A stretch of 64,000 nt of DNA, from positions 7,874,001-7,938,000 of the forward strand of contig NZ_JACHMO010000001.1 of assembly GCF_014205015.1 (NCBI RefSeq), in the 5' to 3' direction. Shown piece by piece: positions 49,126 to 52,568 of this stretch. This stretch comes from Saccharothrix ecbatanensis (GTDB lineage Bacteria > Actinomycetota > Actinomycetes > Mycobacteriales > Pseudonocardiaceae). Numbering within the stretch: the first letter of the stretch is position 1; each line of letters starts with the position of its first letter. The notes under the pieces are model-generated. The model ran no database searches, was not told where the DNA came from, and saw only the letters and a list, made by a program, of their open reading frames with translations. Both the position numbers and the translations under genes were made by a program.

Positions 49126-50079
<954 letters not shown>

Positions 50080-50141
50080 TTGCCACGCACGGCATGATGG
50101 ACGCTTCGTCAACTGTGTCCGTCTGCTCGAGGAGGAGTGCC

Positions 50142-50573
50142 GTGACGGCCGACCAGGTCGAGGACGCCACCGCCCGGCTGTACCTCGCGATCGGCAGGCT
50201 ATCCCGGCTGCTGCGGCGGACCGGGTCACCCGGCCTCGGTCCCGGCGCGGTGTCCGCGCTGGCCACGTTGGCGCGGTGCGGTCCCATGCGGTTGGGCGAC
50301 CTCGCCGCCAAGGAAGGCGTCGCCCCGCCCACCCTCTCCCGAATCGTGGCCGCTTTGGTCGAGTCCGGGTATGTGCGGCGCGAACCTGATCCGCAGGACG
50401 GGCGGGCTTGGCTGGCGACGCCGACGCCGGAGGGTGTGACGATGGTGTCGGGGGTGCGGTCGGCGCGGGTGCGCGAGTTGCAGCGGCGGATCGAGCAGAT
50501 GACGCCGGAGCACAGGGAGGCGCTGGTCAACGCGCTGCCGGCATTGGAGGAACTGGTCGGCGAGGTCAGCTGA
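50142..50573 (+). CDS. MarR-family transcriptional regulator
   Basis: A 143-residue winged-helix regulator. LYLAIGRLSRLLRR opens the dimer region, PMRLGDLAAKEGVAPPTLSRIVAALVES is the recognition part and DPQDGRAWLATPT the wing with the conserved DxRxxxxxLT-like pattern. GTG at 50142 has GGAGG 7 nt upstream. It lies 62 bp after thiG and could be read through from it. Ligand and targets are unknown. It is followed by the long palindromic element. Confidence 0.88.
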   Translation: MTADQVEDATARLYLAIGRLSRLLRRTGSPGLGPGAVSALATLARCGPMRLGDLAAKEGVAPPTLSRIVAALVESGYVRREPDPQDGRAWLATPTPEGVTMVSGVRSARVRELQRRIEQMTPEHREALVNALPALEELVGEVS

Positions 50574-50646
50574 CCGACTCTTAGGTGCTTTGAACTCTTA
50601 GGTGCTTTGAACTGCTTTGAACTGCTTTAAGGGCGAAAGATTAAGA
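50574..50646. repeat. AT-rich short direct repeats before the palindromic element
   Basis: Copies of CTTAGGTGCTTTGAACT and shorter GCTTTGAACT repeat head to tail. Comparable repeats of CTTGTGATCT(T/C)TCCG flank the other side (51168-51210). Confidence 0.6.
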
Positions 50647-51168
50647 GCGTCCTCGCCGGACGGGCAGATCAGCAGGATGACCGGGTCGGGCGGTTGTGCG
50701 CCGGTCTCGTCGTCGGTCCGGGCTTCGTGCCATCCCGCCGACCTCCACAAGGGCAACCACACGTGTCAAGGGGGGCGCCCGCAGTGAACGATGAGGCATT
50801 GGTGGACGACGCCCCCCTTGACACGCGCGGTAGGGCTGCGCCAGGTCGGCGGGATGACACGAACCCCTCCTTTGGAAAAGGGCCGCGCGCTGAACGGATC
50901 GGGCGTCCCGGGGCGGCGATGTGGTCACCTACCGGTGTTCTCTCAAACCAGGGGTTCGTGTCATCCCGCCGACCTGGCTTTGCCCTACCGCGCGTGTCAA
51001 GGGGGCTGTGCGGCGTTGCCTCATCGTTCACTTCGGGCTGCCCCCTTGATGCGTGTGGTAGCCCGGAGGGAGGTCGGTGGGATGACACGAAGCCCGGACC
51101 AACGACGAGACCGGCGCACAACCGCCAAACCCGGTCATCCTGCTGATCTGCCCGTCCGGCGAGGACGC
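50647..51168. repeat. 522-bp near-palindromic element with nested inverted repeats
   Basis: The arms 50647-50868 and 50950-51168 are inverted copies, identical over the outer 40 bp and highly similar throughout, around an 81-bp centre. Each arm has its own inverted repeats: TTCGTG(C/T)CATCCC with GGGATGACACGAA, and GTCAAGGGGG with CCCCCTTGACA flanking AGTGAACGATGAGGCA. Long open frames on both strands encode nearly the same peptide (RRPG-ALPRVSRG, PLDTRGRA-PGRRDDTNP), a consequence of the symmetry. It lies between convergent marR-type and VanZ-like genes. Confidence 0.9.
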
Positions 51169-51717
51169 TTGTGATCTTTCCGCTTGTGATCTCTCCGCTT
51201 TTGATCTTTTCAAAGCCGCCACCAGCACCCCCGACACCACCGCCAGCACCACAGCCGCCATCGCGCCGATCGTGTTGTTGTAGAGGTCCTGCTCCTCGCA
51301 CACCCCGATCCCGGTGGCCGCCTGCACCAGCTCCACCCCGCCGCTGAACAGCCCCGACACCACGAACACCGCGAACGGCCGCCGGCAAGCCACCGTGGCG
51401 AAGAACGCGAACGGCGCCAGCATCAGCAGGTTCAGCCGCTCCCGCGACCCCGCCAGCGAGAACCCGTTCCCGACGCACCGCCCGACCGGGTCGGTGGTGA
51501 TGAGCGTGAACGACCCACCCGCCCGCGCCAGCGTGACCGCCAACGCCAACGCCAGCCCGCACCCCGCCAGCACGGCCGGGGTCGCGGGCCACCGGCGCCA
51601 CCGCGCGACCGCGAATCCGGCCGCACCCAGCACCAGCGAACCCCCGACCAGCGTCGCGACGGTCTCCGGTTGGCTCAGCACCCACTCGGCGACGTCCACG
51701 TCCTGTCGTGCGCTCAT
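51028..51717 (-). CDS. VanZ-like membrane protein with a repeat-derived C-terminus
   Basis: A 229-residue protein with four or five hydrophobic helices. The late part, GLFSGGVELVQAATGIGVCEEQDLYNNTIGA, has the VanZ-type pattern in which an acidic ELxQ helix precedes a D-x-x-x-N-T-x-G helix. The last 47 residues or so, from SPDGQISRMTGF to the stop, are encoded within the palindromic element, and the preceding KAERSQAERSQ by its flanking direct repeats. The native end therefore seems displaced. ATG at 51717 is chosen; 51783 would overlap thiD. It follows thiD by 35 bp. Confidence 0.7.
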   Translation of the reverse strand: MSARQDVDVAEWVLSQPETVATLVGGSLVLGAAGFAVARWRRWPATPAVLAGCGLALALAVTLARAGGSFTLITTDPVGRCVGNGFSLAGSRERLNLLMLAPFAFFATVACRRPFAVFVVSGLFSGGVELVQAATGIGVCEEQDLYNNTIGAMAAVVLAVVSGVLVAALKRSKAERSQAERSQASSPDGQISRMTGFGGCAPVSSLVRASCHPTDLPPGYHTHQGGSPK

Positions 51718-51752
51718 GAACCGCAAGACGCGCCGACCCCACCCCGGTGGGC

Positions 51753-52568
51753 CTAACCCCGGTGATCTCCTTCCAACCTCCACAACGGCGACACAGGACC
51801 CACACCGCCACCCAACGGGTACGCGGCGGCCACCGAACGGACGATGAAGTCCTTGCCGAACCGCACCGCCGTCGGCACGTCCGCACCCCGCGCCAGCTGC
51901 GACGCGATCGCCGAAGCCAACGTGTCACCGCTGCCGTGCGTGTGCTTCACGTCGTACCGGGGCCCCAGCAGCTCGATGAACTCCGACCCGTCGTACAGCA
52001 CGTCCAAGCACTCCGGGTCGTCCCACAAGTGGCCGCCCTTCACCAGCACCCACCGCGGCCCCATCGCGTGCAACGCCTCCGCGGCCTTCCGCTGATCGGC
52101 CCGGCTGCGCACCTCCAGACCGGTGAGCAGCCGCACCTCGTCCAGGTTCGGCGTCACCAACGTCGCCCGCGGGAACAGCAGCGTCCGCAACGCGTCCAGC
52201 GCGTCGTCCGCCAACAGCTGGTTCCCGTGCATCGACGCCGCCACCGGGTCCACCACGAACGGACCGACGTCGACCCGGTCCAGCGCGCCCGCGACCGCCT
52301 CGATGATCGCCGCCGACGCCAGCATCCCCGTCTTCGCCGCGTCCACGCCGATGTCCGTGGCCACCGCCTCGATCTGCGCCGCCACCACCTCCGGCGGGAT
52401 CTCGGTGTACCCGGTGACACCCAGCGAGTTCTGCACGGTCACCGCGGTGACCGCCGTCATCCCGTGCACACCGCACGCGAACAACGTCCGCAAATCGGCC
52501 TGGAGGCCCGCACCACCGCCGGAATCCGACCCGGCGATGGTGAGGACCTTCGGTGGAGCGACAGCCAT
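51753..52568 (-). CDS. thiD: Hydroxymethylpyrimidine/phosphomethylpyrimidine kinase
   Basis: A 271-residue ribokinase-fold enzyme that phosphorylates HMP and HMP-P. VLTIAGSDSGGGAGLQADLRT, VDPVAASMHG, TPNLDEVRLLTG, VLVKGGH and the catalytic HGSGDTLASAIA are all present. ATG at 52568 is used. It lies 44 bp downstream of thiC and is probably co-transcribed under its TPP riboswitch. Confidence 0.95.
   Translation of the reverse strand: MAVAPPKVLTIAGSDSGGGAGLQADLRTLFACGVHGMTAVTAVTVQNSLGVTGYTEIPPEVVAAQIEAVATDIGVDAAKTGMLASAAIIEAVAGALDRVDVGPFVVDPVAASMHGNQLLADDALDALRTLLFPRATLVTPNLDEVRLLTGLEVRSRADQRKAAEALHAMGPRWVLVKGGHLWDDPECLDVLYDGSEFIELLGPRYDVKHTHGSGDTLASAIASQLARGADVPTAVRFGKDFIVRSVAAAYPLGGGVGPVSPLWRLEGDHRG

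Follow-up and report, generated by a model that had tools for sequence, protein, structure and literature searches.

The locus examined here raises the question of what kind of element a 522-bp near-palindrome between two convergent genes of Saccharothrix ecbatanensis is, and where it came from. The window, as we call the whole stretch of 64,000 nucleotides analysed (G000:C1:7874001-7938000, which sets the contig coordinates of the model matches below), contains the palindrome at 50647-51168, with its core at 50649-51166, between a MarR-like gene on the plus strand (50076-50573) and a VanZ-like gene on the minus strand (51028-51783). An initial annotation, made from the sequence alone, had described a near-palindrome with nested inverted repeats at this convergent position, and our examination confirmed it. 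The arms (50635-50798 and 51017-51180) are 89% complementary across 164 nt, and nested inverted repeats lie at 50720-50777/50810-50867 and 50951-51006/51040-51095. About 38 bases are identical at the outer ends, where 40 bp had been claimed; the loop AGTGAACGATGAGGCA is found in both the left and the right arm, in line with the conserved inner sequence noticed earlier; and the central spacer, given as 81 bp, measures 83 nt (50868-50950). When the palindrome was folded as RNA, a check proposed with that annotation, the energy was -487 kcal/mol (z = -33), which shows only its palindromic nature because any palindrome of this size scores in the same way. A frame of 150 amino acids with a TTG start (50694-51146, plus strand) is open over nearly the whole palindrome and has no Pfam match.

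The palindrome is a head-to-head dimer, and each half is a module of ~215 nt in which stem P1, a conserved internal loop, stem P2, motif E and the short hairpin P3 follow one another. The left module (50649-50867), laid out as P3, E, linker and P1/P2 hairpin, has the minus strand as its folded strand and is matched by the covariance model R1 at 7924649-7924864 (minus, 191.1 bits), and the right module (50951-51166), laid out as P1/P2 hairpin, linker, E and P3, has the plus strand as its folded strand and is matched at 7924954-7925166 (plus, 190 bits). The rod formed by P1, the internal loop and P2 spans 50720-50867 on the left (minus strand; P1 50720-50744/50843-50867, P2 50756-50777/50810-50832) and 50951-51095 on the right (plus strand; P1 50951-50975/51071-51095, P2 50986-51006/51040-51060). 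Both modules terminate in one 34-nt sequence holding motif E and P3, which is GTCCTCGCCGGACGGGCAGATCAGCAGGATGACC at the conserved outer end on the left (50649-50682, minus strand) and its complement on the right (51133-51166, plus strand), where P3 reads GTCC-GGCGA-GGAC. Beyond the modules lie a T-rich/A-rich tail of tandem units on the left (50578-50648) and a tail of three 15-nt units of the CGCTTGTGATCTTTC type on the right (51166-51210), the latter resembling the tails after P3 in other copies. The short direct repeats reported earlier around the palindrome do exist, but they are two different T-rich tandem tails and not a target-site duplication.

The neighbours of the window copy are genes for ThiG, the MarR-like protein and the VanZ-like protein. 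As had been claimed, the final ~47 codons of the VanZ-like frame are supplied by the element (51028-51168, minus strand). Comparison with empty sites, another of the proposed checks, revealed a relative (G008) in which both flanking genes are present (92% and 88% identity) and 62 nt replace the 665 nt found here; the left tail is missing there, and the VanZ-like frame of this relative does without the element-derived codons. The gap in this relative is too diverged at the palindrome site for a target-site duplication to be read, and tails vary between copies of the family. When the MarR-like locus was searched in 23 relatives (~3.5 kb each), R1 matched nothing in 21 of them, with E values up to 1 accepted. 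The same MarR-VanZ gap holds a more distant copy in G011 and a weak, partial match in G015, and these two may be separate insertions.

Copies elsewhere, which the initial annotation had suggested looking for, are numerous. The genome of S. ecbatanensis itself has three larger places, namely the palindrome dimer and two single copies (5446637-5446880 and 9671360-9671573), together with two fragments. Sequence matches were obtained in 23 of 60 relatives searched, the own genome being among the 60 and the best 10 candidates per genome being scored, and the 28-nt outer end occurs at up to 3 mismatches in 11 of 25 genomes of the genus, with as many as 42 copies. When named genomes were scanned with a pattern, 111 stretches were found; the 80 that were listed come mostly from Saccharothrix (NRRL B-16348, S26, luteola, carnea and deserti) and a few from Kutzneria, Amycolatopsis and Saccharopolyspora, and the elements recur in two sizes, ~230 and ~540-580 nt. 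These copies and the clean gap in G008 support the earlier suggestion of a non-autonomous mobile element. The covariance model R1 found matches in 50 of 80 genomes of the family and in 33 of 46 genera; the best 29 candidates per genome were scored in this search, so that copy numbers are lower bounds in several genomes. There were at least 29 matches each in G004, G012 and G110 (29 of 29 scored), 26 in G074 and G102, 25 in G060 and 23 in G099, and since several genomes reach or approach the scoring maximum, such high numbers may have more than one origin. In a phylum-wide sample R1 matched 1 of 100 genomes, the own genome, which proves no absence elsewhere because R1 also gave no significant match on the Streptomyces loci L338-L340 described below. 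At one further locus (L124, G011:C11), two modules of a divergent type overlap or abut in inverted orientation, forming a dimer-like arrangement of a different subfamily. Searches with Rfam gave no match above the gathering score in the window or in 15 relatives, except for tRNAs in the relatives; other Rfam names proposed for the palindrome or its relatives scored far under the gathering scores and were rejected. The initial annotation had recognised no described family.

The structure of the module is conserved further than its sequence, the same architecture being present in distant relatives whose sequence has changed. The internal loop is conserved (5' side CCTGGC..GCCC.ACC, 3' side GGTAGCCCT..GGAGG), stem P2 is variable in sequence, and a variable loop is followed by the linker, motif E and hairpin P3, whose stem covaries around GGCGA as GTCC/GGAC, GCGC/GCGC and GCCC/GGGC. 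In 30 sequences picked for diversity, which include the two modules of the window, standard pairs fill 95.3% of 1311 cells, cells that are not independent since the sequences are related, and two-sided changes occur at 30 of 44 pairs; none of 500 shuffles reached such a value. The same set contains 94 G-T wobble pairs and 7 A-C mismatches, and this excess of wobble pairs indicates that one strand, read from P1 to P3, folds. A further set comprised 35 copies, drawn almost entirely from other genera; with an alignment fitted to the model and at least one duplicate (L167/L217), it gave 95.9% of 1522 cells paired, two-sided changes at 35 of 44 pairs and 90 G-T pairs versus 7 A-C mismatches, while the best of 300 shuffles reached 79.2% and 28 pairs. 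This set was reduced from 71 rows; of the 36 removed, 35 read the same palindromes in antisense and one was truncated. The structured nucleic acid that had been proposed among other possibilities is therefore supported by strong covariation. In addition, motif E is similar to the 5' strand of P1, and pairing of E with the 3' strand of P1 is possible in 93.3% of cells (0/500 shuffles), an agreement which is partly expected because of that resemblance.

The gene settings of many low-copy members of the family are those of actinomycete integrative conjugative elements (AICEs). When 20 chosen loci of 20 kb each were examined, SCO3933-like genes were found in 11, RepSA in 10, FtsK-type Tra in 9, GntR in 7 and a tyrosine integrase in 4, most commonly in the order element, opposite-strand regulator, SCO3933-like gene, Tra, RepSA and integrase; four of the 20 (L177, L181, L187 and L190) had no AICE gene cluster. 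Pfam models for RepSA, FtsK, GntR and Phage_integrase scored above their cut-offs in sampled proteins, RepSA far above, and the NCBIfam matches for RepSA and SCO3933 were all under cut-off. Transfer RNA genes lie within flanks of ~3 kb at 7 of 29 model-hit loci. As a separate observation, CutA-like genes adjoin the element at L150 (983-1318, plus strand; NCBIfam CutA below cut-off) and at L127 (5434-5763, minus strand; by reading).

We then related R1 hits to RepSA genes. Among the matches listed, 49 low-copy hits were considered, all in genomes searched for RepSA, with the own genome and the high-copy genomes G060 and G074 excluded. A RepSA gene lies within 12 kb of 26 of these 49 hits; it is on the P3 side in 26/26 and on the same strand in 24/26, and the two on the opposite strand (G077 and G124) lie ~0.2 kb from the module. 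Seen from the other side, 54 RepSA matches had E < 1e-70, 26 with a listed hit within 12 kb and 28 with no listed hit near; 52 of the 54 entered the position count, two contig-edge fragments of G034 being excluded. The 12-kb surroundings of the remaining 23 low-copy hits are free of RepSA, and these hits may be remnants. AICEs of other replication types were considered as their hosts and are unsupported: none of the 23 had RepAM within 12 kb or 25 kb, and none had Prim-Pol within 12 kb (1/23 within 25 kb). These null results indicate that, where a link exists, the partner is RepSA, a rolling-circle initiator. The genome of S. ecbatanensis gave no RepSA match. The family, its structure and its link to RepSA are well supported.

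A second conserved segment lies beside the module. Beyond P3 in many low-copy members, the alignment shows a G+C-rich hairpin and then CTTGATGAAGAAAAGAAACTCTGAACA, a segment that looks like a double-strand origin (dso) of RepSA; the CTTGA after the hairpin would fit a nick region of the pC194 type. With up to 8 edits allowed, the hairpin and CTTGATGAAG... motif (hereafter the 3' motif) was found within 400 nt in 13 of 20 low-copy loci, leaving 7 without it, and in none of 20 shuffled and none of 20 other-side stretches. At the pattern-scan loci it follows only 6 of 91 E-P3 matches (6 of 97 having been dropped for flanks that were too short), four of the six being in other genera, and in the window no match was found at up to 7 edits within 50301-51700. 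The segment alone matches nine Streptomyces plasmid records, five of which also have a RepSA match, and in four of these five RepSA lies 4-8 kb off on the expected side and strand. At L338-L340 the motif comes after a long hairpin whose internal loop is similar, L338 and L340 being alike there. In a class-wide sample the motif occurs at up to 2 mismatches in 4 of 296 genomes, the own genome and three of another genus, which we take to be Streptomyces and in which GntR, Tra and RepSA lie on the expected side; the two of these three that were folded have no P1-P2 hairpin. The own genome carries an exact motif at G000:C1:7081137-7081163 (L346 about 10013, minus strand), a place without RepSA, Tra or integrase matches among the predicted genes and perhaps an AICE remnant.

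The dispersed copies have features of their own. In 19 of 20 chosen dimers, each half is more similar to a half of some other dimer (0.87-1.00) than to its own mate (0.78-0.90), indicating that the dimer spreads as a unit; the window dimer is a near tie (mate 0.88 versus 0.88 and 0.89). Recent duplication or gene conversion of the arms, as put forward in the initial annotation, is not borne out by these comparisons, and the interpretation given there is supported in part. For the chromosome-organising site also named there, no sign was noticed in these data. Near-identical dimers have differing flanks, which points to recent spread in some species. Some orthologous sites carry a single module in one species and a dimer in another; at one such site (L061 in G001, L199 in S26, L075/L200 in luteola), a single module is present in two species and a dimer in the third. 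Short forms end in a T-rich stretch past P3, with a T fraction of 0.40 in the first 30 nt (97 matches) versus 0.15 over the loci, and the tails after P3 are often tandem units of the GATCTTTT and AAGCTTTT types, the number of which varies between near-identical copies (L196-L275). An autonomous transposon with two outward ends was considered and rejected, as the 4.4-kb end pairs in G022 and G001 are two separate elements that enclose hisS, a metallo-beta-lactamase-fold gene and others (by reading of translations) at conserved places. Two elements 4.4 kb apart (L139 and L140) occupy corresponding positions in two species, on either side of a block read as hisS and its neighbours. At L132 (G015:C1, 5983-6747) an in-frame fusion joins half an AICE-type element to the N-terminal portion of a truncated gene for an IS110-type transposase (Pfam DEDD_Tnp_IS110, 162.5 bits). 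This fusion recalls IS110 bridge-RNA elements, but among the loci inspected it was noticed at this one only and the typical neighbours of the module are AICE genes, and an IS110 bridge RNA was rejected.

Based on these observations, we suggest with moderate confidence that the module is a strand-specific folded element of RepSA-type AICEs, probably a single-strand origin (sso), and that the window dimer is a short form which has spread as a non-autonomous repeat. Weighing against this suggestion are the low-copy hits and RepSA genes that have no partner nearby, the opposite-strand RepSA of G077 and G124, the loci lacking the 3' motif, the Streptomyces-type genomes in which motif and RepSA occur without a P1-P2 hairpin, the NCBIfam RepSA scores under cut-off and the negative RepSA search of the own genome. 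Rolling-circle replication has been described for RepSA elements and the nick site of pSAM2 has been assigned to the pC194 type (available text of PMC3218068), and the sso of ICEBs1 comprises three predicted stem-loops and is active in one orientation (available text of PMC4595007). When the rolling-circle mode of RepSA, the pC194-type nick and the ICEBs1 sso are taken together, P1-P3 is best read as the sso and the segment with hairpin and CTTGA as the dso; the module would then be the single-strand-origin half of an AICE replication origin. Single-strand origins usually lie in the part that is displaced last. A nick in the hairpin-CTTGA segment would cause the P1-P3 module to be displaced last, the displaced single strand would fold there, as DNA rather than RNA, and the host would prime the second strand. 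In Saccharothrix, a short form without the 3' motif would have spread non-autonomously, singly or as an inverted dimer moving as a unit, and the window dimer, best read as a dispersed derivative of an origin-type hairpin from AICEs, lies between the convergent genes and now supplies the C-terminus of the VanZ-like frame.

This reading places the module near several known systems. Low-copy members lie, as in RepSA-type AICEs of the pSAM2 group, among RepSA, Tra, GntR, SCO3933-like and integrase genes, often with a tRNA near, whereas none of those genes surrounds the window copy, a dispersed dimer built from a single non-coding module. Like sso1 of ICEBs1 and sti/sso of pIJ101, with which we compare it by their descriptions in the available text of PMC4595007 and PMC4170104, the module is an orientation-specific fold of one strand on a rolling-circle replicon, and a one-strand fold in fixed orientation on such a replicon is one mark of an sso, orientation-specific conversion of single-stranded into double-stranded DNA being another; it differs from them in its long rod of two parts, in the conserved internal loop of that rod and in the small GGCGA hairpin. 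The hairpin followed by CTTGA beside AICE-type copies is a putative counterpart of the pC194/pSAM2 dso (available text of PMC3218068 for pSAM2), but the window copy has no such segment. The dispersed forms are short, non-coding, present in many copies, mostly intergenic and built of inverted repeats, as are MITEs, REP and ERIC/RU sequences; a long covarying rod, the conserved internal loop, the asymmetry of the folded strand, the AICE source and the tandem T-rich tails set them apart. The palindrome of REP/RAYT is 20-40 bp (available text of PMC3733652), and the module, at ~215 nt, falls outside this size. In the literature searched, most subscription papers being outside it, we found no description of the module, of an AICE sso or of the repeat family (including the available text of PMC3218068, PMC4595007, PMC5714925, PMC4170104 and PMC3583192).

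Here, we need to consider other explanations of the same data. Since the covariation and the wobble pairs suit RNA equally with single-stranded DNA, the module could be a structured non-coding RNA that regulates, for instance, copy number, immunity or excision of RepSA AICEs and ends at P3 and a U-rich tract, with E acting as a switch when it pairs with the 3' strand of P1. The potential of E to pair with the 3' strand of P1 and the T-rich stretch after P3 are consistent with such an RNA, which we regard as possible though rather doubtful, as no Rfam family matches, the link is to RepSA and not to AICEs generally, and the next gene is often on the opposite strand, so that the module is not a leader of that gene. 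The presence of the module at one end of Tra-carrying AICEs could also suggest a cis-acting site for transfer or maintenance, of the clt type, bound by FtsK-type Tra, or for partition. Known clt sites, however, act as double-stranded DNA bound by TraB (available text of PMC3218068), while the strand asymmetry points to a folded single strand, and we find a site of this kind very unlikely. A more speculative idea, improbable in our estimation but less so than a transfer site, is that an origin hairpin has turned into a stand-alone, SINE-like parasite: a gene-less folded single-stranded DNA or RNA copied into the chromosome in trans, with T-rich tandem tails at its P3 ends, pairing up into a nested palindrome that spreads as a unit, and perhaps drawing on the replication proteins of incoming AICEs.

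If the module were instead a small transposon in its own right with a tendency to land in AICEs, its association with them would be secondary, and both the dispersed high-copy forms without AICE genes and the low-copy hits without RepSA nearby would be accounted for. The fixed side and strand relative to RepSA are not what random landing would give, and little credence, slightly below that for a transfer site, is left for such a transposon. As for the window copy itself, it might be an ordinary palindrome of a convergent gap, which terminates transcription from both sides or stabilises mRNA. With a crude gene finder, overlapping loci kept and 35 of 80 elements unplaceable, convergent gaps are favoured (15/45 placed elements versus 40/241 in the background, p = 0.013) and divergent gaps avoided (4/45 versus 63/241, p = 0.012), and G011 and G015 also have a copy between the MarR-like and VanZ-like genes. 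However, tandem gaps hold 26 of the 45, the pattern also fits selection against insertion at promoters, and most relatives lack a copy at the site, making a mere terminator the least credible of these explanations and a highly improbable one.

The single-strand-origin reading remains the likeliest of these. A conserved structured module next to RepSA is indicated for Pseudonocardiaceae conjugative elements, some Streptomyces having a look-alike, and the R1 model marks this module in genomes. AICE-type DNA can become a dispersed repeat family, and one copy of it now ends a protein-coding frame.
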